NCBI GenBank assembly: GCA_019117485.1
Contig: DWZQ01000012.1
Location: forward strand, 1 to 33,903
Source: Candidatus Agathobaculum intestinipullorum
Lineage (GTDB): Bacteria > Bacillota > Clostridia > Oscillospirales > Butyricicoccaceae
DNA: 33,903 nucleotides
Reading direction: 5' to 3'
In this document: one piece after another, positions 1 to 33,903 of the stretch
Layout: each line of letters opens with the position of its first letter
Position numbering within the stretch: the stretch's first letter is position 1
Program-made: the position numbers and the translations under genes
The notes under the pieces: generated by a model
The model's database searches: none
Told to the model about the DNA's origin: nothing
The model's input: only the letters and a program-made list of their open reading frames with translations

Positions 1-1187
1 TACTTGCACAGCTCGTCGCGCTCGACGATGATCGCCTCGCCCATGCCGCCGCCGATGCACATCGTGGCCAGACCGATGGTCAGGTCGCGCTTGATCATTT
101 CGTACAGCAGGGTGGTGGTGATACGGCAGCCGGCCGCGCCGATCGGGTGGCCCAGTGCGATTGCGCCGCCGTTGACGTTGACCTTGTCCATGTCGAAGCC
201 GAGTTCACGGTTAACCGCAGCAGCCTGCGCAGCAAACGCCTCGTTGGACTCGATCAGGTCGAGGTCAGCAACGGTCAGGCCGGCACGCTTCAGTGCCTGA
301 CGGGTAGACTCGATCGGGCCGATACCCATGATGGACGGGTCGCAGCCGACGGAGCCGAACGCACGGATCTTAGCCAGCGGCTTGAGGCCGTGAGCCTTGA
401 CGAAGTCCTCGGACGCGATGATCATCGCAGCGCCAGCGTCGTTGATGCCGGAGGCGTTACCAGCGGTAACGGTGCCGTCCTTCTTGAACGCCGGACGCAG
501 CTTTGCCAGACCCTCGAGCGTGGTCTGCGGGCGGCAATGCTCGTCGGTGTCGAATACGACGGTTTCCTTCTTCTTCTTGACTTCGATCGGGGTGATCTCG
601 TCCTTGAACTTGCCATCAGCGATCGCCTTGGCAGCCTTCATCTGGGATTCATAGCCGATCTGGTCCTGCATCTCACGGGTGATGCCGTACTGCTCGGCAA
701 CGTTTTCCGCAGTGATGCCCATGTGGTACTGGTTGAACACGTCGAATACGCCGTCGTAAACCATCATATCGACGAACTTTACGTCGTTCATACGGGCGCC
801 CCAGCGCATGTTGCGGGAGATGTACGGCGCACCGGACATGGACTCGCAGCCGCCGACCAGCATCATCTGGTCTTCGCCCGAGCGGATGATCTGAGAGCCG
901 AGCGAGATGGCGCGCATCGAGGACGCGCAAACCTTGTTGAGGGTCATTGCGGGGGTCTCAAGCGGCATGCCGATGCCGAGCGAAACCTGACGGGCTACGT
1001 TCTGGCCAACGCCGCCCTGCAGCACCTGGCCGAACAGGACTTCGTCGATCGCGGCCTTGTCAACGCCGGCGCGCTCTACCGCAGCGTTTGCGGCAGCAAT
1101 GCCCAGCTGGGCAGCGGGTACGTCACGCAGGGTACCGCCGTAAGTGCCGATGGCGGTGCGGGCAGCAGAACAGATGTAAACGTTCAT
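1..1187 (-). CDS. thl: Acetyl-CoA C-acetyltransferase (thiolase), last base or bases cut by window edge
   Basis: Condenses two acetyl-CoA to acetoacetyl-CoA in the cytoplasm, the first step of butyrate synthesis. Translation from the ATG at 1187 gives 395 residues, the normal length for this family, and then the two bases TA, so only the end of a probable stop codon is missing. The thiolase signatures are all present: the acyl-accepting Cys at about residue 87 (NKVCASSMRA), the GHPIGAAG motif with His347, and the general-base Cys377 in CIGGGMGEA. The gene is separated from the upstream pct gene by 181 bp that hold its own promoter and a Rex operator, so it can be expressed independently of the 4-hydroxybutyrate genes. 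The alternative, a degradative 3-ketoacyl-CoA thiolase, is less likely in this context. Confidence 0.95.
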   Translation of the reverse strand, partial: MNVYICSAARTAIGTYGGTLRDVPAAQLGIAAANAAVERAGVDKAAIDEVLFGQVLQGGVGQNVARQVSLGIGMPLETPAMTLNKVCASSMRAISLGSQIIRSGEDQMMLVGGCESMSGAPYISRNMRWGARMNDVKFVDMMVYDGVFDVFNQYHMGITAENVAEQYGITREMQDQIGYESQMKAAKAIADGKFKDEITPIEVKKKKETVVFDTDEHCRPQTTLEGLAKLRPAFKKDGTVTAGNASGINDAGAAMIIASEDFVKAHGLKPLAKIRAFGSVGCDPSIMGIGPIESTRQALKRAGLTVADLDLIESNEAFAAQAAAVNRELGFDMDKVNVNGGAIALGHPIGAAGCRITTTLLYEMIKRDLTIGLATMCIGGGMGEAIIVERDELCK

Positions 1188-23132: not shown

Positions 23133-23178
23133 TAGAATAGCACGGCGTCATGGCTTTTGTTGGCCGACGCCCCGCTGA

Positions 23179-23210
23179 GCACCGCAGGCAAATGCCTGCG
23201 GTGCTTTTTT
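23179..23210 (+). terminator. Terminator, probably of the C69 peptidase gene
   Basis: GCACCGCAGGC and GCCTGCGGTGC form a perfect 11-bp stem with loop AAAT followed by TTTTTT. It now lies 215 bp after the stop codon, on the far side of the MITE-like element. Confidence 0.92.
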
Positions 23211-23213
23211 GTG

Positions 23214-23242
23214 TGGCAAAATACGCCGCAATGGGATATAAT
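23214..23242 (+). promoter_or_regulatory. Candidate polA promoter
   Basis: A perfect TATAAT (23237-23242) is preceded at 17 bp by a weak TGGCAA. The leader would be about 34 nt. Confidence 0.55.
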
Positions 23243-23282
23243 AGGGTTAAATGAAATTTGCAGAAAAATGAGGACGATTTGC

Positions 23283-25916
23283 ATGAAACTCATGGTGATC
23301 GATGGCAATAGCATTTTAAACCGCGCGTTTTACGGCGTGCGGCAGCTCTCCAACCACGAGGGGTTGCCGACCAATGCGGTGTATGGCTTTCTTGCCACGC
23401 TGTTCAAATTGCAGGATGATGAGCGCCCCGACCGCACGGTTGTCTGCTTTGATGTACGGGAAAAGACCTTCCGGCACCTGAAATTTGACTCCTATAAGGC
23501 GACACGAAAGGGCATGCCGGACGAGTTAGCCGCGCAGCTGCCTATCGTTAAGGATGTGCTGGACGCAATGGGGATCGTGCGCTGCGAACTGCCCGGCTAC
23601 GAAGCGGACGACCTGATCGGAACGATCAGCCGCCGCGCGGACGAGCATGGCGACCAGTGCGTCGTGGTCACGGGCGACCGCGACAGCTTGCAGCTGGTCG
23701 GCGGCGGCACAACCGTCCGGCTCGTGACGACCAAGATGGGGCAGACCACCTATGACAGTTACGATACCGCGGCGTTCCGTGAAAAGTACGGCTTCGACCC
23801 GATTTACCTGATCGACCTCAAGGCACTGATGGGTGACTCTTCGGACAATATCCCGGGTGTGCCCGGAATTGGGGAAAAGACGGCGATGCAGTTGTTGCAC
23901 GATTTCGGCTCGCTCGACGGCGTGTATCAGCATCTGGATGACCCGCGCATCAAAAAGGGGGCGCGCACCAAGCTGGAGGCGGGTGAGCAGTCGGCAAAAG
24001 ACAGCTACTGGCTGGCGACGATCGACCGGCATGCGCCGCTGGAGTTGGATGTGGAAAATTTGCCTGCGTCCCAGCCGGACGAACAGGGGTTATATGACCT
24101 GCTGACGCGGTTGGAGTTTAAAAACTTCATCAAGCGTCTGGGACTTAGCGGTGAACAGGCCGCGCCGCGTCTGCCCACCGTGCAGGCGCAGCGCATGGCG
24201 CAGGTGGCTGAAGCATTCACGCTGCTCGACGCGCTGACCGCCAGTGACCGCGTGTTCGCGGTCATATCGGAAACGCTGCGCGCGGTTTGCCTGCTGGACG
24301 GGGATACTGCGTCCGTGCTATTTGCGGATGATTTTGCGGAAGCGGAATGGGACGATCTCCTGCGCCGCTTGTTTGATGGCTCGATCGAGCTTACGCTGCA
24401 CGACGCGAAGCCGATCACGGCCGCGCTGCTCGCGCGCGGTATCGAACCGGACGGCATCCGCTTTGACACTTGCCTTGCGGCTTATGTAATCGACCCGACG
24501 CAGTCGGGATACGACCTTGCGCGCGTGGCGCTGGCTTACTGCAATACCGAATTGCCTGCGCTTGATTTGGATGATCCGGCGGCGGTGTCGCCGCTGGGCG
24601 GGCAAGACGCGACCATCGCGGCTTGTGCGCAGCACGCCGCGGCCATCCGCGCGATTTATACCGAAGCGGCGGAACAGATCGAGCAACTCGGCATGCGAAA
24701 GTTGTATTATGAGATCGAGCTGCCACTGACGCGCGTCTTGGCGGAGATGGAAGTGCTTGGCTGTGCGGTCGAGCCGGATGCACTGCGCGCTTTTGGAGAC
24801 AAGCTGGACGCGCGTATCCGCGAGCTGGTGGCGCAAATCTATCGTGACGCGGATGGGGAGTTTAACATCAATAGCCCCAAGCAGCTGGGCGAGGTACTGT
24901 TCGATAAGCTGCACCTGCCCGCGCCGAAAAAGACCAAGACCGGCTATTCGACGAGTGCGGACGTTTTGGAGCGTCTGGCCGAAGATCACCCGATCGTCAG
25001 CCGGATTCTGGAATACCGCCAGCTGAGCAAGCTGAAAAGCACCTATGTCGAGGGGCTTTTAAAGGTCATCAGCCCCAAGGACGGTCGCATCCACACGCAT
25101 TTCCAGCAGACCGTCACCGCAACCGGCCGTCTGTCCTCGACCGACCCTAATTTACAGAACATTCCGGTGCGCACCGAACTCGGACGCGAACTGCGCCGCA
25201 TGTTTGTCGCGCCGGACGATGATCATGTGCTGATCGACGCGGACTATTCGCAGATCGAGCTGCGCGTGCTCGCGCATATCTCGCAGGATCAGCACATGAT
25301 CGAAGCGTTCCGCGCGGGGCAGGATATCCACGCCGCAACTGCGGCCAAAGTCTACCATGTGCCGCTGGACGAGGTCACGCCGCAGATGCGATCTTCGTGT
25401 AAGGCGGTCAACTTTGGCATCGTGTATGGCATTTCGGACTTTTCGCTGGCGCAGGATATTGGTGTGACGCGCAAGGAGGCGGGCGAGTTTATCCGCACTT
25501 ATCTGGAGACTTATCCGGGCGTCGCAAAATATATGGAGGACATCAAGTCCAGCGCTAAGGAAAAGGGATATGTGACTACTCTGTTCGGCCGCCGGCGTGC
25601 GCTGCCTGAACTGCAAAGCCGCAACTTCAATATCCGTTCGTTTGGCGAACGTGTGGCGATGAATACGCCGATCCAAGGCACAGCAGCGGATATCATCAAG
25701 ATCGCCATGGTGCGTGTGCGTGACCGTCTGCTGCGTGAGGGGCTGGAAAGCCGTCTGATTTTGCAGGTGCACGACGAGTTGATCCTCGAAGCGCCCAAGG
25801 CGGAGCAGGAAGTCGCGATGCGACTGCTGCGCGAGGAGATGGAGGCGGCTTTCCCAATGGATGCGCCGCTAGTGGCCGAGGCCAAGGCAGGCCATAGCTG
25901 GTACGACACCAAATAA
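23283..25916 (+). CDS. polA: DNA polymerase I
   Basis: An 877-residue family A polymerase for Okazaki-fragment processing and repair. The 5'-3' exonuclease domain (1 to about 290) is intact (VIDGNS, YEADDLIG, GDRDSLQL, GDSSDNIPGVPGIG). The polymerase domain holds motif A (DADYSQIELR), motif B (KAVNFGIVYG) and motif C (LQVHDEL). In the central proofreading-like domain the DxE motif is absent (FAVISETLRA where FDTET-like residues are expected), so 3'-5' proofreading is probably lost, as in Bacillus and Thermus enzymes. The start chosen is ATG 23283, 8 nt after TGAGGA; a second Met four codons later is possible. Confidence 0.96.
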   Translation: MKLMVIDGNSILNRAFYGVRQLSNHEGLPTNAVYGFLATLFKLQDDERPDRTVVCFDVREKTFRHLKFDSYKATRKGMPDELAAQLPIVKDVLDAMGIVRCELPGYEADDLIGTISRRADEHGDQCVVVTGDRDSLQLVGGGTTVRLVTTKMGQTTYDSYDTAAFREKYGFDPIYLIDLKALMGDSSDNIPGVPGIGEKTAMQLLHDFGSLDGVYQHLDDPRIKKGARTKLEAGEQSAKDSYWLATIDRHAPLELDVENLPASQPDEQGLYDLLTRLEFKNFIKRLGLSGEQAAPRLPTVQAQRMAQVAEAFTLLDALTASDRVFAVISETLRAVCLLDGDTASVLFADDFAEAEWDDLLRRLFDGSIELTLHDAKPITAALLARGIEPDGIRFDTCLAAYVIDPTQSGYDLARVALAYCNTELPALDLDDPAAVSPLGGQDATIAACAQHAAAIRAIYTEAAEQIEQLGMRKLYYEIELPLTRVLAEMEVLGCAVEPDALRAFGDKLDARIRELVAQIYRDADGEFNINSPKQLGEVLFDKLHLPAPKKTKTGYSTSADVLERLAEDHPIVSRILEYRQLSKLKSTYVEGLLKVISPKDGRIHTHFQQTVTATGRLSSTDPNLQNIPVRTELGRELRRMFVAPDDDHVLIDADYSQIELRVLAHISQDQHMIEAFRAGQDIHAATAAKVYHVPLDEVTPQMRSSCKAVNFGIVYGISDFSLAQDIGVTRKEAGEFIRTYLETYPGVAKYMEDIKSSAKEKGYVTTLFGRRRALPELQSRNFNIRSFGERVAMNTPIQGTAADIIKIAMVRVRDRLLREGLESRLILQVHDELILEAPKAEQEVAMRLLREEMEAAFPMDAPLVAEAKAGHSWYDTK

Positions 25917-27399: not shown

Positions 27400-27482
27400 C
27401 TCTATAATTTGTGGGGTTATCCCCTTGGACGAACGGTTGCAACAGGAAACGGCATGACTGGAGCCATGCCGTTTCTATAGAG
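27400..27482. other. Compact nested inverted-repeat structure in a gene-free gap
   Basis: An outer CTCTATA/TATAGAG stem encloses GGGG-TTAT-CCCC and a perfect 11-bp stem GAAACGGCATG/CATGCCGTTTC with an 8-nt loop. A TATAAT hexamer overlaps the left arm, without a good -35. It could be a structured RNA or the collapsed ends of an insertion element; no ORF is present. It lies between the rubrerythrin terminator and the element attachment site. The remainder of 27327-27637 shows no gene. Confidence 0.5.
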
Positions 27483-27560
27483 GTCAATATTATTTTTATA
27501 TTTTTTACCTGTTCGACGGAGGAGATGTGTGCAGAGAATGCACTACATCTGGAGAAAATG

Positions 27561-27589
27561 AAAAAACCCCCGAATTTTCGGGGGTTTTT
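27561..27589 (-). terminator. Terminator of the split tRNA-Gly locus
   Basis: AAAAACCCCCGA and TCGGGGGTTTTT pair around a short AT loop, with T-runs on both strands. It immediately follows the 3' tRNA fragment on the minus strand, so it probably terminated the tRNA transcript and now also serves the integrase. Confidence 0.88.
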
Positions 27590-27592
27590 GTT

Positions 27593-27617
27593 TGGAGCGG
27601 ATGATGGGAGTCGAACC
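27593..27617 (-). other. att: Attachment site: 3' end of a tRNA gene, probably tRNA-Gly
   Basis: On the minus strand the sequence GGTTCGACTCCCAT followed by CATCCGCTCCA is a T-loop, the 3' arm of the T-stem, and an acceptor strand with U73 and encoded CCA. No matching 5' half is present: the bases upstream are integrase DNA. The acceptor end CCGCTCCA with U73 fits clostridial tRNA-Gly. The intact tRNA should lie at the other end of the element, outside the window. Confidence 0.78.
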
Positions 27618-27637
27618 TGTGCAGAGGGCGCAGAATA

Positions 27638-28681
27638 TCAGGCGTTTTCGGTATCTGTGTTGCATTTCGTGTTGCATAATGCTTCAAAATAGCGGTCAAT
27701 TTGGTCATCAACGGCCTTGCGCTTGTCCGAAAAGGTGTGCTGGTAGACGGTTTGCAGCACGGCATTGGTTGACCAGCCGCCGCGCTCCATGGCGTACTTG
27801 TCCGGCACGCCCAGCTGCAACATGACCGAGGCGTTCAGATGTCGCAAATCGTGAAAGCGCATGTGAGGCAGCCCGGCCGCGGCGATCGCGGCAACAAAGC
27901 GGTTATAGATCACCGCGCCGCTTTCCTTGACGATTGGTTCGTCCGGCTTGCCCTTGCCGATCAGCTGCCGCAGATAGGGCGGCAGGCGCAGCCGCCGCGT
28001 GCTGGTGTACGTCTTCGTCTGCTCACGCACTTCCTCATGATCGCCAACATGCAGCACCGCGCGCCGGATCGTCAGAATGTCGCCGCTGATGTCGCCGTAG
28101 CGCAGGCCGCGCACCTCGCTCATGCGCAGCGACAGCCAGAGTGCCAGCAGGGAGGGCAGCTCGACCGACGTACCCTGCACGGCATGGATCACCTGCTCGG
28201 GGGTGGGCAGGGTGCGCAGCTGCCGCTTTTTGGCGGGCAGCGTGACGCGCAGCCGAAGGTCGGGCGCAAACATGGCGCACGCGGCTGAAATCAGGCCGTA
28301 TGCGTTGGCGACGGTCTTCGGCGAGCATTCTACCGCTTCGCGGTTGATCGCGCTTTGTACGGCTGCTGAATCCAGCGCAGCGAGCGACAGCTTTTGCAGC
28401 GCTCCAAACCGGTGCTTGGCAATCGACCGATAGGCCTGTACAGTCGTGGGGGAGAGCACATGCTCCTTGGAGTCGATGTACTGCTCAATGGCCTGCGCAA
28501 GCGTCAGCTCCGCGATAGTACTGTCTTTGCGTTTGCGGGTGAGGTATTCGCTGGCCAGAAACTCCGCAGTGCGTTTGTCCGGATCAGTAAAGGATTTATA
28601 TTGCCGTTTTCCCGCGGCATCTTTGCCAGTGTAGACCAGTACGCGGTAGTTGCCTGATGGTAATTTCTTTGCTGTTGCCAT
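27638..28681 (-). CDS. int: Tyrosine recombinase/integrase of the element
   Basis: A 347-residue integrase. An AP2-like N-terminal arm-binding domain (SGNYRVLVYTGKDAAGKRQYK, about 9-30) and a SAM-like core-binding domain (about 62-150) precede the catalytic domain. R186 (SLRMSEVRGL), K223, H277-x-x-R280 (HDLRH), W303 (GGWS) and Y313 (TVYQHT) form a complete active site. The start is ATG 28681, 8 nt after GGAGG. Its stop lies 21 bp from the tRNA 3' fragment, the standard int-att arrangement. A perfect LexA box sits 19 bp upstream of the start codon, so expression may rise during SOS. Confidence 0.95.
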   Translation of the reverse strand: MATAKKLPSGNYRVLVYTGKDAAGKRQYKSFTDPDKRTAEFLASEYLTRKRKDSTIAELTLAQAIEQYIDSKEHVLSPTTVQAYRSIAKHRFGALQKLSLAALDSAAVQSAINREAVECSPKTVANAYGLISAACAMFAPDLRLRVTLPAKKRQLRTLPTPEQVIHAVQGTSVELPSLLALWLSLRMSEVRGLRYGDISGDILTIRRAVLHVGDHEEVREQTKTYTSTRRLRLPPYLRQLIGKGKPDEPIVKESGAVIYNRFVAAIAAAGLPHMRFHDLRHLNASVMLQLGVPDKYAMERGGWSTNAVLQTVYQHTFSDKRKAVDDQIDRYFEALCNTKCNTDTENA

Positions 28682-28699
28682 TGCGAAAACCTCCAAAAA

Positions 28700-28713
28700 G
28701 GAACATTTGTTCG
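28700..28713. promoter_or_regulatory. lexA box: LexA (SOS) box upstream of the integrase
   Basis: On the minus strand CGAACAAATGTTCC fits the Bacillus-type SOS consensus CGAACRNRYGTTYC at every position. It lies between the Ltp terminator and the int ribosome binding site. Confidence 0.8.
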
Positions 28714-28726
28714 TGTTTAGTGGGTG

Positions 28727-28770
28727 AAAAAATGCAGACCACAACAAAACAGTGTTCGGTTGTGGTCTGC
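28727..28770 (-). terminator. Terminator between the Ltp-like gene and int
   Basis: GCAGACCACAAC and GTTGTGGTCTGC form a perfect 12-bp stem followed on the minus strand by ATTTTTTC, just after the stop codon of the Ltp-like gene. It isolates int, so int needs its own SOS-type promoter. Confidence 0.9.
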
Positions 28771-28778
28771 GGGGTTAT

Positions 28779-29315
28779 TTAGTATCCTGCGGCCGTGACG
28801 CCGTGTTCCGCTTGTTCTTGTGTAAAGCCCTCATACACGAGCTGATCGATCAGGCCTTGACGGGAGAACGACATCGTATCGAGATAAGTCTGGGCAGATT
28901 TTGCAGCCTGCTCATTCCAGTCTGCACCGCAGTTATCGGCTGCAAATGTCGCATCCTCGGTTGAGTATCCCTCATATTCCAGCTGCCCGATCAGGCCGCT
29001 GCGAGAAAACGCCATGAACGACAGATAATTTTCTGCTGCACCCAATGCGTTTTTTTGTCCCATGGTCATGGTGTCGGCGGGTTCTTCCGGTTCTTCAACC
29101 TGAACCGCAGTCGGTTCAGTCTGCTGTTCATCTTCTGGCTCGGTATCGGTCGGTTCGGTTGTGGTGGTCTGCGTTTGCTCGGCAGTCTGCTGGTCATCGC
29201 CCTTGGTTTCGATATCATCCGAAGGAGCAAACATGCCGATAACAAGCACGATTACGATTGCCCATACCCACCAGCGTTTGTAAAACGGTTTTTTGATCTT
29301 TGCTTTTTCTTCCAT
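28779..29315 (-). CDS. Membrane-anchored Ltp-like protein (two PF07553-type repeats), candidate superinfection exclusion factor
   Basis: A 178-residue protein: a short basic N-terminus, one membrane span (WWVWAIVIVLVIGMFA, about 15-31), a Thr/Glu/Gln-rich linker (about 35-83), and two tandem helical repeats of the Ltp type (NALGAAENYLSFMAFSRSGL and SAQTYLDTMSFSRQGL, each followed by a Tyr-Glu-Gly turn). In phage TP-J34, Ltp is a surface lipoprotein that blocks DNA injection by related phages. Here no lipobox cysteine is present, so the repeats are tethered by a transmembrane helix instead. The start is ATG 29315 after AAGGGGG. Its place next to int in the lysogeny module fits immunity to superinfection, though this role is inferred. 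Confidence 0.85.
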   Translation of the reverse strand: MEEKAKIKKPFYKRWWVWAIVIVLVIGMFAPSDDIETKGDDQQTAEQTQTTTTEPTDTEPEDEQQTEPTAVQVEEPEEPADTMTMGQKNALGAAENYLSFMAFSRSGLIGQLEYEGYSTEDATFAADNCGADWNEQAAKSAQTYLDTMSFSRQGLIDQLVYEGFTQEQAEHGVTAAGY

Positions 29316-29334
29316 GATAAATCCCCCTTAAAGA

Positions 29335-29362
29335 TTGACAAAATTAGCCAATCTCGTATAAT
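29335..29362 (+). promoter_or_regulatory. Promoter of a small RNA, divergent from the Ltp-like gene
   Basis: A perfect TTGACA (29335-29340) and a perfect TATAAT (29357-29362) are 16 bp apart, pointing to the plus strand, where no protein gene lies. Confidence 0.85.
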
Positions 29363-29368
29363 GATATT

Positions 29369-29435
29369 GGAGGACATGTGAGACACTCCATCTTTGCCCG
29401 TTCCGGTGGTAGCGCACTGGGGCGGGCGCTTTTTA
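29369..29435 (+). ncRNA. Candidate small RNA of about 66 nt
   Basis: From the consensus promoter the transcript would start near 29369 and end at a strong intrinsic terminator: GCCCGTTCCGGTG pairs with CACTGGGGCGGGC (G-U pairs included) and GCTTTTT follows. The body begins GGAGGACATGTGAGACACTCC, in which GGAG can pair with CTCC, and holds a start-stop (ATG TGA) after GGAGG. It touches only the last three bases of the convergent gene. No RNA family is recognised. Confidence 0.65.
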
Positions 29436-30698
29436 TGAAACCGACATGCAGACGATCAGCCAAATAACAAGAAACACCAAAGCAGCGATAACGGCTTTGC
29501 GTTTATAGAATGGTGTAACCGGTTGATTATTTTGCTGTTCTTTGAACGTTCGAGGCAGGGTGCTCAACCATATGCCGCACAGGTAAACGATAGTACTAAC
29601 AATTGGGGATGCCAGCATAAGGACAGCGGCCATAATGCAAATCAAAGGTGCAAACACTCGAGTAATTTTCATAGAAAGTTTATAGCCCTTTGGGTTCTTT
29701 TCATAAGCTGCCATCATGGCATCAACTGGCTCAACCGGTGTTTTGGATTCGGCAGCAGTTGGTTTTTTAGCAGGTGGTGTATAGGCTACTGGCTTACGAG
29801 GTGGATACTTTGCATGCTCTTTTTTTGCTGGCGCAGCATCCGATGCCATAGGTTTTTCAGTGGGCGGTGTATATGCTACTGGCTTACGGGGAGGGTATTT
29901 TACGCGTTCCTTTTTTGCCGATACACTTACAGTGTCTCGGGTTTTATCTGCTATGGTCTGTGAGATGTCCGGCAGCGTAAGCGTGATAGATGTCCCTGAG
30001 CTCTGTCGTGGGCGAGCAAGTACTTTTGCATATTCGTTTAGTCTGGCTTGTATGATGGAATCATCCCACAGCTTTTGAAGTCCCATATAATTAGCCGCCT
30101 GCTCTAATGTGACAACTTTATAGCCGGATTCGCGTCGGTAGGAAAAATCATCATCTGTATAGTACCGGTAGTCTGCCATGATAGCATATTTTGCACTTTT
30201 GGCAGCAGTTTTGTAAAGCCTGCCACCGTGTTCGTCACACTTCTTTGCGATAGCAGAAGTAAGTTTGGAGAATTTCTTTTGCAGGTCAGCATCCGGGCTG
30301 CCTTGTATGTAGCACCAGTAGATATCATCCGTGATTGGGTCGGCATTCACGCCAGCCAATAACTGTTGCGCATGTCGTTGATTATATTCATCACGTTCAA
30401 TCCGATGTCGTTCAACGACTTCGATTGCGGCTTTCTGGCGATCATGCAGGAAGTCCATCAGCTCATGGTAGTCGGATGGATCAACCCAAAAGGTATAGTC
30501 TGACAGGTGCACTCGGTAGTATAGCCCATCCGAACTTTTCCCGGTTTCCCCTACATGACCGCAGTATCCGCGTTGTCGATGGCCGTTGATTTCAATACTC
30601 TCTACATCGTCCAGCGGAAATACAACGTCAGCACTGCCGATATCTTTACCATATGCCTTTACATAGTCGAAATGATAATTGTTTCGGTTAGAAGCCAT
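29433..30698 (-). CDS. Element-encoded protein with BRCT-like domain and two C-terminal membrane spans
   Basis: A 421-residue protein of unknown function. After a basic/aromatic N-terminal region (1-120) comes a segment (about 126-207) that resembles a BRCT fold in its spacing: DDIYWCYIQG, a helix ending in CDEHGGRLYKTAAKSAKYAIMA, then GYKVVTLEQAANYMGL. The middle carries two copies of KYPPRKPVAYTPP (about 270-335), and the C-terminus has two hydrophobic spans (about 355-390 and 400-418). A BRCT-like module joined to a membrane anchor is unusual. The start is ATG 30698 after AAAAGGAG. It is divergent from an SOS-controlled small ORF. The BRCT call is by eye and needs a profile search. Confidence 0.7.
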   Translation of the reverse strand: MASNRNNYHFDYVKAYGKDIGSADVVFPLDDVESIEINGHRQRGYCGHVGETGKSSDGLYYRVHLSDYTFWVDPSDYHELMDFLHDRQKAAIEVVERHRIERDEYNQRHAQQLLAGVNADPITDDIYWCYIQGSPDADLQKKFSKLTSAIAKKCDEHGGRLYKTAAKSAKYAIMADYRYYTDDDFSYRRESGYKVVTLEQAANYMGLQKLWDDSIIQARLNEYAKVLARPRQSSGTSITLTLPDISQTIADKTRDTVSVSAKKERVKYPPRKPVAYTPPTEKPMASDAAPAKKEHAKYPPRKPVAYTPPAKKPTAAESKTPVEPVDAMMAAYEKNPKGYKLSMKITRVFAPLICIMAAVLMLASPIVSTIVYLCGIWLSTLPRTFKEQQNNQPVTPFYKRKAVIAALVFLVIWLIVCMSVS

Positions 30699-30770
30699 CG
30701 CGGTCAGCTCCTTTTGGTGTCCGATTTGAACACCGAGATTTTCAATGATATGCAATATATTGATTTACCC

Positions 30771-30799
30771 TTGCCAAAACCCAAGATGTGGTGTATTAT
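30771..30799 (+). promoter_or_regulatory. SOS-controlled promoter facing the repressor gene
   Basis: TTGCCA (30771-30776) and TATTAT (30794-30799) are 17 bp apart. The start of transcription (about 30806) abuts a LexA-like box. The transcript runs into the repressor gene from its 3' end. Confidence 0.7.
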
Positions 30800-30806
30800 T
30801 GAAACA

Positions 30807-30820
30807 CAAACACTTGTTCG
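30807..30820. promoter_or_regulatory. lexA box: LexA-like (SOS) box
   Basis: On the minus strand CGAACAAGTGTTTG matches CGAACRNRYGTTYC at 13 of 14 positions and is symmetric (CGAAC/GTTTG). It lies directly at the start of transcription of the small ORF, a repressing position. Confidence 0.7.
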
Positions 30821-30838
30821 ATTTTGGGAGGGGCTAAG

Positions 30839-31003
30839 ATGACAGAAAGACAAAAACGAATGAAAGAACTGCTGATTCAATCAGACGCGGAAATCACTGA
30901 CCAGATTCTTTCTGCTGTTTTAGCCAAATTCGGTACTCAGCCTGCTGGATTATCTCGTCCTGATCCTGCTCAGGAAGTTTGTCCATCATTTCCAAAATCT
31001 TAA
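30839..31003 (+). CDS. 54-residue SOS-controlled ORF overlapping the repressor gene antisense
   Basis: ATG 30839 follows GGGAGGGG by 5 nt and opens MTERQKRMKELLIQSDAEIT, a charged helical segment, ending with TAA at 31003. The last 110 bases are antisense to the 3' end of the CI-like repressor gene. Promoter, LexA box and ribosome binding site in series argue that it is real. It resembles no family I know. By analogy with the LexA-controlled antirepressors of phage 186 and Salmonella phages, it could inactivate the repressor; alternatively the transcript itself may act as antisense RNA. Confidence 0.6.
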   Translation: MTERQKRMKELLIQSDAEITDQILSAVLAKFGTQPAGLSRPDPAQEVCPSFPKS

Positions 31004-31244
31004 TCTGCTTTTCCGTTAACCCGCTTATATCTTCGGATGTGAGCGGGCTTTTTATATCGGTGTTGCCGAGAATGTAGTCAATTGAGACACCAAATATCTT
31101 GGACATTTCACGCAATGCGTCTTGATCTGGCTCGTGCCGTCCGGTCTCCCAGTTTGACACTGTATTTTGTCGAATTTTGAGTTTTTTTGCAAGATCAGCT
31201 TGTAGTAGGCCTGCTTCCGAGCGAAGTTTTTTAATCCTGTTCAT
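30894..31244 (-). CDS. CI-like XRE family repressor without a self-cleavage domain
   Basis: A 116-residue DNA-binding protein with an N-terminal helix-turn-helix (about 4-58: LLQADLAKKLKIRQNTVSNWETG) and a short acidic, helical C-terminus (about 70-116). It lacks the S24 peptidase domain of LexA-cleavable phage repressors, so SOS induction by RecA-stimulated self-cleavage is not expected. It is transcribed leftward from an operator-rich region and faces the rightward early genes, the classical position of a lysogeny repressor. The start is ATG 31244, 7 nt after GAGG. Its 3' end is overlapped by the SOS-controlled small ORF. Confidence 0.9.
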   Translation of the reverse strand: MNRIKKLRSEAGLLQADLAKKLKIRQNTVSNWETGRHEPDQDALREMSKIFGVSIDYILGNTDIKSPLTSEDISGLTEKQIKILEMMDKLPEQDQDEIIQQAEYRIWLKQQKESGQ

Positions 31245-31263
31245 GGCTACACCTCGCTCTTAG

Positions 31264-31354
31264 GATATCATAAATATCTATATCAGGAAAATGAATATCG
31301 GGGAAAGAAAGATTTTTGTTGACATATCAGGAATACCGATATATACTGATATCG
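31264..31354. promoter_or_regulatory. Operator array with ATATC/GATAT half-sites between repressor and early genes
   Basis: Half-sites of the form ATATC(A/G)GG recur, including ATATCAGGAATACCGATAT (31324-31342), a perfect ATATC-N9-GATAT palindrome lying between the -35 and -10 of the early promoter. Further copies lie near 31264-31300 over the presumed repressor promoter, and GATATC occurs at 31348-31353. The arrangement suggests cooperative repression and autoregulation by the CI-like protein. Confidence 0.7.
31319..31347 (+). promoter_or_regulatory. Early rightward promoter of the element
   Basis: TTGACA (31319-31324) and TATACT (31342-31347) are 17 bp apart, a near-consensus promoter covered by the central operator. 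It drives the small early genes from 31402 on. Confidence 0.9.
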
Positions 31355-31401
31355 AAGAAGCTGATATGCATTCGGCAAAAAGATATGAGGAGGTGAGAGG
31401 G

Positions 31402-31539
31402 ATGGATTATAAGGAGATTTTGGAGGAGCAGTTACTGCTCCTGCGGGAAATTGCACAGAAAAGAAGATGTTCACTGAGTGAATATTGCGAAATCTCAAAA
31501 AACATGGTGGAAATCGTTAATTGTCTTAATAGTCTCTGA
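31402..31539 (+). CDS. 45-residue early protein of unknown function
   Basis: ATG 31402 follows GAGGAGGTGAGAGG, a very strong ribosome binding site, and encodes MDYKEILEEQLLLLREIAQK and on, a mostly helical, Glu/Leu-rich protein. A longer reading from ATG 31291 would start ahead of the promoter and is rejected. As the first gene after the early promoter it takes the position often held by a Cro-like or recombination-directionality protein, but it has no recognisable helix-turn-helix. Confidence 0.65.
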   Translation: MDYKEILEEQLLLLREIAQKRRCSLSEYCEISKNMVEIVNCLNSL

Positions 31540-31575
31540 GCCGACATTGGTCATGCCGGCCCAGAGCAATGGATG

Positions 31576-31737
31576 TTATTGATCTGAAATCGCATCATTA
31601 ACTCCGCTCAAAATGGTTTTATATGCGATAGCGACTTGTTTTGCACGCATTTCTGTGTCATCCGAAGCGTCAAACAATACAAATCCTTTTTCCATGGCCT
31701 GCAAAGTAAGTTGCAATGCAATTTCCAGACTGTTCAT
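31576..31737 (-). CDS. 53-residue protein of unknown function, minus strand
   Basis: ATG 31737 follows AAGGAGGTGATTTC, an ideal ribosome binding site. The product starts MNSLEIALQLTLQAMEKGFV and looks like a small helical cytoplasmic protein. It opposes the early genes and lies tail to tail with the gene at 31402. The only DNA between it and the divergent gene at 31813 is the repeated cassette, in which I find no promoter. No family recognised. Confidence 0.6.
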   Translation of the reverse strand: MNSLEIALQLTLQAMEKGFVLFDASDDTEMRAKQVAIAYKTILSGVNDAISDQ

Positions 31738-31742
31738 GAAAT

Positions 31743-31810
31743 CACCTCCTTCCTGCTTCCATGGTAACACATGGAACGGGAAGGGGCAAGGAGCGATAGG
31801 GAGGTGAGAG
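31743..31810. repeat. 68-bp divergent-start cassette, copy A
   Basis: Identical at 63 of 68 positions to copy B (32258-32325). It carries a ribosome binding site at each end, facing outward, and the palindrome TTCCATG-GTAACA-CATGGAA (31757-31776) in the middle. The start codons of the flanking genes are 75 bp apart. Confidence 0.9.
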
Positions 31811-31812
31811 AG

Positions 31813-32046
31813 ATGGAACAAGAGTTTGACGAGCGCTTTTGGGTATGTGTCTCACGCCATTGCGTAGCCGCGTATGAAAGCGCATGCGAGAAAACGCCCG
31901 TACATTTGGGGGAAATCTGTGCGTCATGCCAGTATGTCCACCAGTGCTACAAAACGGGAAACGCTGGTTATTGGCCGACAGCCAATGCCATTTTAAAACA
32001 AAAAAGCGGCATTGGCTGTCAATTCATGCGGCCATGGAAAGATTAG
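31813..32046 (+). CDS. 77-residue Cys-rich small protein
   Basis: ATG 31813 follows AGGGAGGTGAGAG from the repeated cassette. The protein has seven Cys, including ICASCQYVHQC, which with nearby His residues suggests a zinc-binding fold. It ends in FMRPWKD. Its last four bases overlap the end of the convergent gene at 32043. No family recognised; small zinc-finger-like proteins are common in phage early regions. Confidence 0.65.
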   Translation: MEQEFDERFWVCVSRHCVAAYESACEKTPVHLGEICASCQYVHQCYKTGNAGYWPTANAILKQKSGIGCQFMRPWKD

Positions 32047-32252
32047 TAAACAGATTTTTGGTAAACCGGGCATTCAAAATTTTCTTGAGATGCCCCTGGG
32101 CAATCTCCAAGCGCACCAGCGCTACAAGAGTAGCCGCCCCTGAGGTACTGGGTTCCAGTGTCTCCGCATACTTCTATCTTTTCAAAATCAACGCGGAGAG
32201 ACACCGGCTTTTTGCTCAGCGGGCAACTACAGCGATAGGTTTTTGAAACCAT
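32043..32252 (-). CDS. 69-residue Cys-rich small protein, minus strand
   Basis: ATG 32252 follows GGAAGGAGGTGGAACT from the cassette. It begins MVSKTYRCSCPLSKKPVSLR and has six Cys (CSC, VCGD, YSCSAG, DCPG, ECPVY). The pattern fits a small metal-binding protein. It is convergent with the gene at 31813 (4-bp overlap) and divergent from the gene at 32328, through copy B of the cassette. Confidence 0.62.
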   Translation of the reverse strand: MVSKTYRCSCPLSKKPVSLRVDFEKIEVCGDTGTQYLRGGYSCSAGALGDCPGASQENFECPVYQKSVY

Positions 32253-32257
32253 AGTTC

Positions 32258-32325
32258 CACCTCCTTCCTGCTTCCATGGTAACACATGGAAGCAGAGGGG
32301 GCAAGGAGCGACAGGGAGGTGAGAG
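32258..32325. repeat. 68-bp divergent-start cassette, copy B
   Basis: Second copy of the unit at 31743-31810, offset by 515 bp. Here the central palindrome is longer (GCTTCCATG-GTAACA-CATGGAAGC, 32270-32293). The flanking start codons are again 75 bp apart, with outward ribosome binding sites. Confidence 0.9.
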
Positions 32326-32327
32326 GA

Positions 32328-32600
32328 ATGGACAAGAAAGTGTTAAAAGAATTGCGGAACATGAAAAAAAGAATTGATGAGCTGGAACGCAACCAGACAG
32401 CACCGTCTTATTACTTTGGCAAGATGAATCTCGCAGGAGTAGTGCGCATGGTTGAAACATTAGCGAAAACCAGACAGAAGCAAGAAATAGTGTCTCCTAA
32501 AATTGAAAAACGAGCAGATGCTGCTTTTGTGATAGCGATTGCGGCGTTGACTTGCGGAATTATCGCACTCTGTCTGAGAGTATTTGAACTATTCCTGTAA
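32328..32600 (+). CDS. 90-residue small coiled-coil membrane protein
   Basis: ATG 32328 follows AGGGAGGTGAGAGG. The N-terminus MDKKVLKELRNMKKRIDELE is a coiled-coil candidate, and the C-terminus (about 64-90) is a hydrophobic span (AFVIAIAALTCGIIALCL). The topology recalls small phage membrane proteins such as rII- or exclusion-type factors, but no homology can be claimed. It is transcribed with the early genes. Confidence 0.68.
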   Translation: MDKKVLKELRNMKKRIDELERNQTAPSYYFGKMNLAGVVRMVETLAKTRQKQEIVSPKIEKRADAAFVIAIAALTCGIIALCLRVFELFL

Positions 32601-32641
32601 TTGCTGCCAGCGTGCTGAAGAAAAGAGTAAGTCTTTTGCAG

Positions 32642-32670
32642 TACATGGAACGAGAAGCGATAGGAGGTGA
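32642..32670 (+). repeat. Partial third copy (right arm) of the divergent-start cassette
   Basis: ACATGGAACGAGAAGCGATA followed by GGAGGTGAG corresponds to the right arm of copies A and B with an internal deletion of about 10 bp. The left arm and the minus-strand gene are missing. It supplies the ribosome binding site for the TTG start at 32675. Confidence 0.75.
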
Positions 32671-32674
32671 GCGC

Positions 32675-32854
32675 TTGGATCAATCCTTGCAATTTCATGA
32701 TGAAATCATCTTGAGATTTAGGCAGGGTCGATTGCAGGAAGTCATTATCGACGGTATACGGCAAAATGATGTGAAAGCCTTTTCAATTGCGGCATCTCCG
32801 ACGCAAGTCGCTTCCTACCTGATTGAGCATTCGACCGTATATTCAGATTCCTGA
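32675..32854 (+). CDS. 59-residue protein of unknown function
   Basis: TTG 32675 follows TAGGAGGTGAGCGC. The product starts MDQSLQFHDEIILRFRQGRL and ends near HSTVYSDS; it looks like a small mixed alpha/beta protein with IIDGIRQ and AASPTQVASYL segments, the latter faintly helix-turn-helix-like. An ATG 63 bp earlier lies within the repeat and has no ribosome binding site. Confidence 0.6.
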   Translation: MDQSLQFHDEIILRFRQGRLQEVIIDGIRQNDVKAFSIAASPTQVASYLIEHSTVYSDS

Positions 32855-32882
32855 GAACAAGAACCGGAAAGGGGTGAATAAC

Positions 32883-33083
32883 ATGAAAACCATCAAGCGA
32901 TACCGCGAAGAGCGCGGCATCAAGCAGATCGAGCTTGCGGCGCACTTTGGTGTATCTCAGCCGACGGTTGTCAGATGGGAGCAGGAGGGTGTGTACCCGC
33001 CCGGCCAGGTGATGCTTGAGCTTGCGGCCTTCCTCGGCTGCACAACCGATGAGCTGTATGAAACGAAAAAGGAGGTGAGCTGA
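32883..33083 (+). CDS. 66-residue XRE-type helix-turn-helix regulator (Cro-like)
   Basis: ATG 32883 follows AAAGGGGTGAATAAC. Nearly the whole protein is one HTH domain: IKQIELAAHFGVSQPTVVRW followed by GCTTDELYE. Single-domain XRE proteins of this size in phage early operons are often Cro-like or excisionase-like regulators. It is followed after 1 bp by the next HTH gene. Confidence 0.88.
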   Translation: MKTIKRYREERGIKQIELAAHFGVSQPTVVRWEQEGVYPPGQVMLELAAFLGCTTDELYETKKEVS

Positions 33084-33084
33084 G

Positions 33085-33306
33085 TTGAGCAAACAGGGTG
33101 ACTTGCAATTCGTTGCAAACATTGAGAAGTATCGTGTTTTGTCGGGGCTGCCGGATCACACAGCGCTTGCCAAGCGCATCATGGTATCGCGGCAGCTACT
33201 GCACCGGCGATTGGAACAGCCGGGCGATCTGACGGTTAACGAACTGCGCCGGATTTCGACTGTGCTGGGCATGCCCGCAGAGGAAATGCTGTCACTGTTC
33301 AAGTGA
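33085..33306 (+). CDS. 73-residue helix-turn-helix protein
   Basis: TTG 33085 follows AAGGAGGTGAGCTGAG. The product contains HTALAKRIMVSRQLLHRRLE, a helix-turn-helix, and NELRRISTVLGMPAEEMLSL, as in XRE-type regulators. It starts 1 bp after the previous stop codon, so the two are probably translationally coupled. It could be a Cro-like or regulatory partner of the preceding protein. Confidence 0.8.
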   Translation: MSKQGDLQFVANIEKYRVLSGLPDHTALAKRIMVSRQLLHRRLEQPGDLTVNELRRISTVLGMPAEEMLSLFK

Positions 33307-33344
33307 TGGGTGCATTATAGCATGAAAAAGGGAGGAAAACCAGT

Positions 33345-33812
33345 TTGTCAAAATACAGAAATATCTATCAAACTGCGCGTGAGCTGAAAGGTTTGACGCA
33401 GGAAAACGCAGCTGAGCGACTAGACATCTCGGTTGAGAGTCTCGGCGCGTATGAGCAGGATCGCCGACGGCCGCCAGATAGTACGGTTTTACGCATGGCA
33501 CAGCTTTACGATTTTCCGCATCTGTGCTATCAGCATCTTGCATCGGGTGAGCTGGGAGGCATGCTGCCGGACGTGCGGCAGAAGTCACTTGAGCAAGCAA
33601 CACTGCGTTTTGTGCGGCTGTTCGGCGAGTTTGCCAAGAGCGGCCATCTGGATCAGCTGATGGAGATCAACGAGGACGGCATTATCACAGACGAAGAACG
33701 TCCACTGCACGACGCAATCATGGCAGAACTGCAGGAGATCACGACGACATATCTCGAATTGGATTGTGCGGCGCAAAAGGAAAGCGCCCAGTGCGGCGGC
33801 AACCGCGACTGA
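33345..33812 (+). CDS. 155-residue XRE family regulator with C-terminal extension
   Basis: TTG 33345 follows GGGAGGAAAACCAG. The N-terminal HTH (LTQENAAERLDISVESLGAY, about 18-37) is followed by an acidic C-terminal region of about 90 residues with EINEDGIITDEERPL, seen in phage regulators of this size. It is the third HTH gene in a row. Its target cannot be inferred. Confidence 0.85.
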   Translation: MSKYRNIYQTARELKGLTQENAAERLDISVESLGAYEQDRRRPPDSTVLRMAQLYDFPHLCYQHLASGELGGMLPDVRQKSLEQATLRFVRLFGEFAKSGHLDQLMEINEDGIITDEERPLHDAIMAELQEITTTYLELDCAAQKESAQCGGNRD

Positions 33813-33852
33813 GCGCAAGCAAAATTAAACTACTTACAGGATACCGGAAAAG

Positions 33853-33881
33853 CCCGGCGCTGTCAAGAGGGCCGCGCCGGG
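33853..33881 (+). other. GC-rich hairpin before the next gene
   Basis: CCCGGCGC and GCGCCGGG pair perfectly with a 13-nt loop, and the stem runs into the GGGAGGAAGG ribosome binding site of the gene at 33898. No T-run follows, so it may affect translation rather than termination. Confidence 0.5.
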
Positions 33882-33897
33882 AGGAAGGAAAAACAAA

Positions 33898-33903
33898 ATG
33901 ATT
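33898..33903 (+). CDS. Start of a further gene, cut by the window edge
   Basis: ATG at 33898 is placed 8 nt after GGAGGAAGG. Only two codons are visible, so nothing can be said about the product. Confidence 0.4.

Follow-up and report, generated by a model that had tools for sequence, protein, structure and literature searches.

LexA-controlled antirepressors that act on non-cleaved phage repressors are already known, namely Tum of phage 186, AntC of N15 and GfoA/GftA of the Gifsy phages (PMC3121763; this and the other papers given by PMC number are cited from excerpts, to which our statements about them are limited). In addition, some phages of Gram-positive hosts have non-self-cleaving repressors and are nevertheless induced by DNA damage; for TP901-1, this induction is RecA-dependent and its route is described as unknown (PMC11149083). 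Here we describe a prophage locus of Candidatus Agathobaculum intestinipullorum on contig DWZQ01000012.1, the whole of which (33,903 nucleotides (nt)) is hereafter called the window. A small open reading frame (ORF) with its own LexA-box promoter runs antisense into the gene of a repressor in which no cleavage domain was detected. By computation we found in this unit the box, the promoter, the ORF and a terminator; we also found that the peptide is under selection and resembles the C-terminal hairpin of the repressor, and that the unit is conserved across phages. We consider it probable that this locus encodes an antirepressor under LexA control, nested opposite the prophage repressor gene, and that its peptide acts as a decoy of the dimerisation hairpin, in the manner of SinI on SinR. 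The locus would then represent a concrete, testable route for damage induction of a phage with a non-cleavable repressor.

The locus is similar to the Tum, AntC and GfoA/GftA systems in that a LexA-controlled gene is proposed to inactivate a repressor without a cleavage domain, but differs in that its small gene lies on the antisense strand within the repressor gene, has its terminator there as well, and resembles the repressor C-terminus. Because the ORF has no Pfam or PHROGs match, we regard it as a functional analogue and not as a shown member of the Tum, AntC or Gfo groups, from which family search alone sets it apart. What is new is not LexA control of an antirepressor but the nested antisense gene, the terminator inside the target gene, and the decoy of the target. 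A literature search of open-licence PMC papers, likewise limited to excerpts, returned no nested antisense antirepressor with a terminator in the repressor gene and repressor mimicry. An earlier reading of the same DNA without database searches (the sequence-only reading) had called the combination unusual, which holds for the architecture but not for the locus alone, as it recurs across one genus.

The C-terminal hairpin of SinR makes dimers, and the mechanism and gene order of SinI are taken here as general background. As in SinI/SinR, a short peptide resembles the C-terminal hairpin of a SinR-like helix-turn-helix (HTH) repressor; in contrast to SinI, there is no match to PF08671, control is by the SOS response, the genes overlap convergently, and the affected function is phage immunity. 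The AimX-type small antirepressors of arbitrium phages (9iaq, 9sf2) are comparable through the PDB matches of the repressor model alone, and are under peptide-signal control, in contrast to LexA control here. TP901-1 CI, a non-cleavable repressor with a helical-hook dimerisation domain in which CTD1 makes dimers, parallels the non-cleavable repressor and predicted helical C-terminal dimerisation part of our locus, while its partner Mor, unlike our peptide, has an HTH and contacts CI through the N-terminal domain of CI; the excerpt of that description mentions no LexA-controlled nested ORF (PMC11149083). In transcription factor-small ORF (TF-smORF) modules, tiny proteins without homologues inactivate the phage repressor, as proposed here, but DNA damage is not required; their expression depends on a phage transcription factor that is encoded divergently (Silpe 2023; PMC10432266).

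Layout of the unit and of its relatives

The unit and the adjoining regulatory region comprise the following features.

30771-30799, + strand: SOS promoter, TTGCCA-17-TATTAT, 10/12 consensus matches
30807-30820, - strand: LexA box CGAACAAGTGTTTG, covering the point where transcription is expected to start, 0 mismatches to CGAACRNNYGTTYG
30826-30833, + strand: Shine-Dalgarno sequence GGGAGGGG of the small ORF, read from the sequence
30839-31003, + strand: small ORF of 54 codons, ATG at 30839 and stop ending at 31003, proposed SinI-like antirepressor
30894-31003: stretch shared by the convergent small ORF and repressor gene, 110 bp, from ORF coordinates
31020-31055, + strand: intrinsic terminator of the small-ORF transcript, antisense in the repressor linker (stem 31020-31047, UUCG loop, T tract)
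30894-31244, - strand: HTH_3 repressor, 116 amino acids (aa), no peptidase domain found (Pfam, PHROGs)
31265-31342, + strand: operator-like repeats near the lytic promoter, putative repressor sites, three 19-nt copies with 74-79% identity to the reference copy
31319-31347, + strand: strong lytic-side promoter TTGACA-17-TATACT, 11/12 consensus matches

The promoter with a LexA box at its start and the small ORF overlapping the repressor 3' end by 110 bp, both claimed in the sequence-only reading, were confirmed, as was the absence of a self-cleavage domain: among the Pfam and PHROGs families listed for the repressor, HTH matched and no S24/LexA-type peptidase was present. The 2.09-Mb assembly contains two copies of the LexA-box 14-mer, one of them being the unit's own. 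Given that the host lexA gene (TIGR00498, 166 bits; match starting at C44:47212) has two sites of the same type directly upstream (C44:47120-47133 and C44:47170-47183), the unit's box is of the right type for this host, and LexA is predicted to bind it. A promoter scan of the region yielded 13 promoter-like sites vs 7.2 in shuffles. By eye, an imperfect palindrome TGGTGTCCGATTTGAACACC (30715-30734) precedes the SOS promoter by about 40 nt, and a similar palindrome, TGTTCAAATTGAACA, is present in locus L003; this is a possible candidate site for a second regulator.

Among all loci fetched, relatives were selected for a box CRAACNNNNGTTYG, a Shine-Dalgarno-like motif, an open small ORF and a convergent ORF of 90-160 aa. 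Of 23 pairs, the incomplete duplicate L073 was dropped, leaving 22 distinct ORF/repressor pairs in 6 sequence classes, 19 of them in Agathobaculum genomes and three (L003, L109 and L112) found only as IMG/VR contigs. All share the layout, with the ORF starting 32-37 nt after the box start and an overlap of 50-110 bp; ORFs are 38-54 aa long and start with ATG throughout, which the script preferred. The sequence TGTATTAT precedes the box in 20/22 pairs, part of the loci having been fetched by a pattern that contains it, and TTG[ACT][CA]A-16..18-TATT[AC]T is present in 19/22. The box is also more frequent than chance would give. When repressor relatives were retrieved purely by protein search (25 loci), 12 of the 14 same-genus loci had a box of 0-1 mismatch that starts 81-108 nt past the repressor stop, and none of the 11 loci from other genera has such a box within 260 nt of the stop. 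Sites with 2 mismatches were found in L028 (other genus) at 40 nt and in L030 (same genus, negative) at 237 nt.

Coding selection, hairpin resemblance and termination

The small ORF is under protein-level purifying selection ahead of the overlap. In its non-overlapping codons, the ratio of nonsynonymous to synonymous change (pN/pS) is 0.35, and it is below 1 in 7/7 groups (21/22 pairs, L123 left out; comparisons within one group are not independent), with 131, 68 and 199 changes at the three codon positions. Stops occur in the +1 frame in 22/22 pairs and in the +2 frame in 20/22, the open ORF frame itself being a selection criterion. Within the overlap, counted in equal-length comparisons only, the repressor frame has 34 synonymous vs 28 nonsynonymous changes in the first 14 overlapping codons and 84 vs 40 in the distal part, at change rates of 0.092 and 0.144, respectively. 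Given the pN/pS ratio and this pattern of change, the selected part is the N-terminal part of the peptide, with a passive-looking tail.

Profile comparison indicates that the first ~36 ORF residues resemble the repressor's own predicted C-terminal hairpin. With hhalign, the ORF-family profile aligned colinearly with the 52 C-terminal repressor residues (score 21.6, P 2.7e-4; ORF columns 3-38 with C-terminal columns 21-54), compared to scores of 8.8 for the HTH part, 14.7 for the reversed block, and a mean of 8.3 and maximum of 15.0 over 200 column shuffles, of which 0/200 reached 21.6. Mean pairwise ORF scores were 27.5 against the own C-terminus, 18.5 against the own HTH part, and 21.7 against the reversed C-terminus. 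The overlap does not create this similarity, because the matched segments, judged from coordinates, are not antisense by layout; the second helix of the ORF lies opposite the repressor tail. The similarity of ORF and C-terminus within their own class was matched by 12/720 class permutations, a weak sign of matching between partners. The repressor profile can be aligned with SinR from position 2 to position 112 (E 8.8e-7). In the AlphaFold2 model of the repressor (mean predicted local distance difference test (pLDDT) 85, predicted template modelling score (pTM) 0.58), the C-terminus forms a hairpin of two helices (78-88 and 92-114). The best PDB matches of this model in Foldseek were 9iaq chains (E 6e-4), followed by the SinR/SinI complex 1b0n (E 1e-3), with 9sf2 also among the matches. 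Coding selection, hairpin resemblance and the same layout in 22 pairs together support the antirepressor peptide that the sequence-only reading had offered as one of two options.

That reading did not contain the terminator at 31020-31047 (+), which lies inside the repressor gene and consists of the hairpin CCCGCTTATATC-UUCG-GATGTGAGCGGG followed by a T tract. With a threshold of -10 kcal/mol or lower for the hairpin plus at least 5 T in 8, an antisense terminator is present within 200 nt of the repressor stop in 22/22 module repressors, compared to 2/22 for the rest of the gene, although the terminator played no part in selecting the pairs. In the same 200 nt, it was found in 5/78 IMG/VR control phage repressors and in 13/110 synonymous-codon shuffles. 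The stems keep pairing at every position, although as many as 5 pair types occur at a single position (17/22 hairpins compared, identical hairpins and those with 6-nt loops left out); pairing itself is expected because the hairpins were found by folding, and the evidence lies in how varied the pairs are while their location is constant. On the repressor strand, the complement of the T tract encodes the lysine-rich linker, and a KK/KN-type linker motif occurs in 19/22 module repressors, compared to an IKKxP-like motif in 2/78 controls, a contrast that is only indicative as the motifs are not identical. Given that the antisense terminator lies inside the repressor gene in 22/22 pairs, the transcript looks like a closed unit of ~250 nt; it is strongly structured (z -3.4). 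We also considered that the SOS transcript reads through into the lytic operon, which is unlikely given the terminator at 31020-31047.

Mechanism and competing explanations

In the absence of damage, LexA would cover the promoter start and the repressor would keep the prophage silent. Upon DNA damage, cleavage of LexA would release a transcript of ~250 nt, which would start at the promoter, span the small ORF and end at the terminator within the repressor gene. Its translation would yield a mostly helical peptide of 38-54 residues, the first ~36 of which would copy the repressor C-terminal hairpin. By pairing with that hairpin, the peptide would break the repressor dimer and free the lytic promoter, and a second LexA box would allow the integrase to be induced alongside the antirepressor. 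In this way, the decoy would let a non-cleavable repressor still respond to DNA damage. From the features above, we infer LexA binding, translation, heterodimer formation and derepression as the steps of this route.

Several results weigh against this proposal. The ORF family had no significant match in Pfam (best E 0.048) or PHROGs (best E 0.016) over 17 members, PF08671 (SinI) was not among the 3 Pfam families matched by ORF members, and the ORF profile found nothing better than E 0.34 in the PDB. The AlphaFold2 monomer of the peptide is a single helix (residues 3-31, mean pLDDT 72) and not a hairpin, and Foldseek with this model returned no PDB match. The PDB matches of the repressor model have TM scores of 0.47-0.57 and root-mean-square deviations of 4-12 Å; because of these low scores and large deviations, and because the better-scoring sequence matches cover the HTH alone, the HTH may carry much of the structural match. 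In single pairs, a shuffle p of 0.05 or lower was reached in only 10/22 (mean z 1.9), and the own class was the best column in only 3/6 rows, making the cognate test weak. The overlapping part of the ORF is not conserved as protein, with 50/62 and 116/124 changes nonsynonymous in the ORF frame (equal-length comparisons), which is what constraint by the repressor frame would produce in this stretch. A general terminator scan over 28400-33900 gave 6 terminator-like sites vs 5.1 in shuffles, and therefore only its fixed place, strength and conservation make the unit's terminator significant. The start region is mostly paired in the folded window transcript (mean unpaired probability 0.11; 0.03-0.47 over 22 loci), and translation could be coupled to other events. 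Finally, no equally complete case was found outside Agathobaculum in our searches.

A broader version of the decoy proposal, which we put forward tentatively and with slightly more doubt than belief, is that of a self-contained switch, in which the antidote to the prophage master repressor is encoded opposite the repressor's own gene. It would comprise a LexA promoter, an ORF whose product is a decoy copy of the dimerisation hairpin, and a terminator written in the linker codons. The cassette and the C-terminal domain would form a single evolving unit that can be swapped, with the DNA-binding domain subject to exchange, and the transcript may act twice, as decoy and as antisense RNA.

That both products act in the phage, with the peptide removing existing repressor and antisense transcription stopping its resupply, is compatible with the decoy proposal but seems to us rather unlikely. 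A single transcript does carry both a selected ORF and complementarity to the 3' end of the repressor mRNA; this complementarity, however, follows automatically from the overlap, and the RNA effect is only presumed.

We find it improbable that the RNA is the effector by itself, either as a LexA-controlled antisense RNA that pairs with the repressor mRNA over its 3'-terminal ~160 nt or through collision of polymerases, such that repressor synthesis falls. The lambda OOP RNA has its own terminator and a 3' overlap. In sequence features only, our unit is similar to OOP, with a LexA-box promoter and a short terminated transcript antisense to the 3' end of a regulator gene, and the strong structure of the transcript also fits an acting RNA. 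OOP has a LexA site in its promoter and is described as a small RNA, with cII mRNA as its target (PMC5869508), whereas the transcript here carries an ORF under purifying selection (pN/pS 0.35 in its non-overlapping part) that resembles the repressor C-terminus. Moreover, reduced synthesis alone would not quickly clear existing repressor. The antisense or collision silencing suggested in the sequence-only reading is therefore weakened as a sole mechanism, because the transcript should end inside the repressor gene and the ORF is under protein-level selection, but it survives as a possible second effect.

It is quite improbable that the small protein is SOS-induced for another role (excision factor, host takeover or toxin) and that the overlap reflects genome compaction, given that the ORF, although it matches no known family and the integrase likewise has a LexA box, is similar to the repressor C-terminal hairpin and not to the HTH, and adjoins the repressor in relatives found by repressor search alone.

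Distribution and prophage surroundings

The decoy proposal suggests a search signature, a LexA box ~90 nt past the repressor stop combined with a terminator antisense to the linker, which could reveal such switches that gene callers easily miss. The small-ORF protein was present in 5/60 relatives, all Agathobaculum, and an IMG/VR scan with the small ORF gave no relative. Searching genome contigs with the promoter and box pattern returned 50 stretches, of which at least 13 carry the module, all in Agathobaculum, the others including recA genes and unrelated sites. A similar pattern matched only the window and genome G653 among 391 genomes of the class. The ORF profile matched 11/394 genomes of the order, 3 of them outside the genus, and the exact CRAACNNNNGTTYG box was absent from the ~3.1-kb loci of these three. 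Five genomes carry 2-3 modules, always of different classes, which is statistically not striking. The module pairs provide a natural decoy/target set for specificity studies.

Among 80 IMG/VR repressor loci, the exact box lies within 250 nt of the stop in three (L142, L143 and L199), compared to none for the reversed pattern; L142 and L143 are phages already counted. Locus L177 has a 1-mismatch box, a 52-aa ORF overlapping the repressor and an antisense terminator, and L195 and L199 have boxed convergent small ORFs with a different sequence. Such looser cases are only suggestive, because 2-mismatch boxes in 79 repressors numbered 8 vs 4 for a scrambled pattern. L240, a phage from another source, has a convergent 55-aa ORF overlapping the repressor (-82 to +86 antisense from the stop), with no LexA box seen at the locus, and perhaps represents the same layout wired to another signal. 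Among annotated phage records, 50 matched the window repressor at E 1e-8, none with one place covering 80%, and distant blastn gave no phage DNA match.

The prophage appears to start at the integrase and to run off the contig end; a DNA polymerase I-like ORF lies at 23157-25913. Its further features are as follows.

27638-28681, - strand: tyrosine integrase of the prophage (phrog_1, E 1.4e-40)
28700-28713, - strand: second LexA box CGAACAAATGTTCC, starting 32 nt before the integrase ATG
28779-29315: Ltp-type superinfection-exclusion lipoprotein (phrog_4980, E 5.3e-47)
29433-30698, - strand: 421-aa ORF between the repressor and the Ltp gene (best PHROGs E 0.31, Pfam E 0.098)

An integrase ORF could be found by motif in 9/22 pairs, and in 7 of these 9 a box with up to 2 mismatches lies 29-38 nt before its ATG; excision may thus be SOS-controlled together with the antirepressor. 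The 421-aa ORF has hydrophobic stretches at its C-terminus, as judged by eye.

A small-RNA-like gene at 29335-29437 (+) has a perfect TTGACA-16-TATAAT promoter, a GGAG...CACTCC hairpin and a terminator. In L003, the interval between small RNA and unit is without a gene of the 421-aa type. The terminator motif of the small RNA occurs upstream of 14/22 modules, some flanks being too short to tell, and a pattern derived from it was found in 9/87 genomes of the family, all Agathobaculum. Rfam over 27400-33903 gave 10 matches, all below the gathering score and none at the small RNA. We considered the small RNA as a specific regulator of the ORF start and rejected this candidate: the duplex in the window is good (-24.3, z -2.8), yet there was no specific support over 14 loci, with a mean z of -0.87 and cognate and non-cognate duplexes alike at -17.2 (3/14 RNAs were shortened by the script).

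Elsewhere, a host LexA box precedes a conserved ORF of 78-85 aa at L036:1501-1514 and also in L116, L119, L124, L125, L127, L128, L132 and L135. In L036 this ORF is followed by a 112-aa ORF that, by eye, is sigma-70-region-4-like. A perfect LexA box at L002:1501-1514 lies ~170 nt upstream of an mraZ-like gene (139 aa, named by eye).
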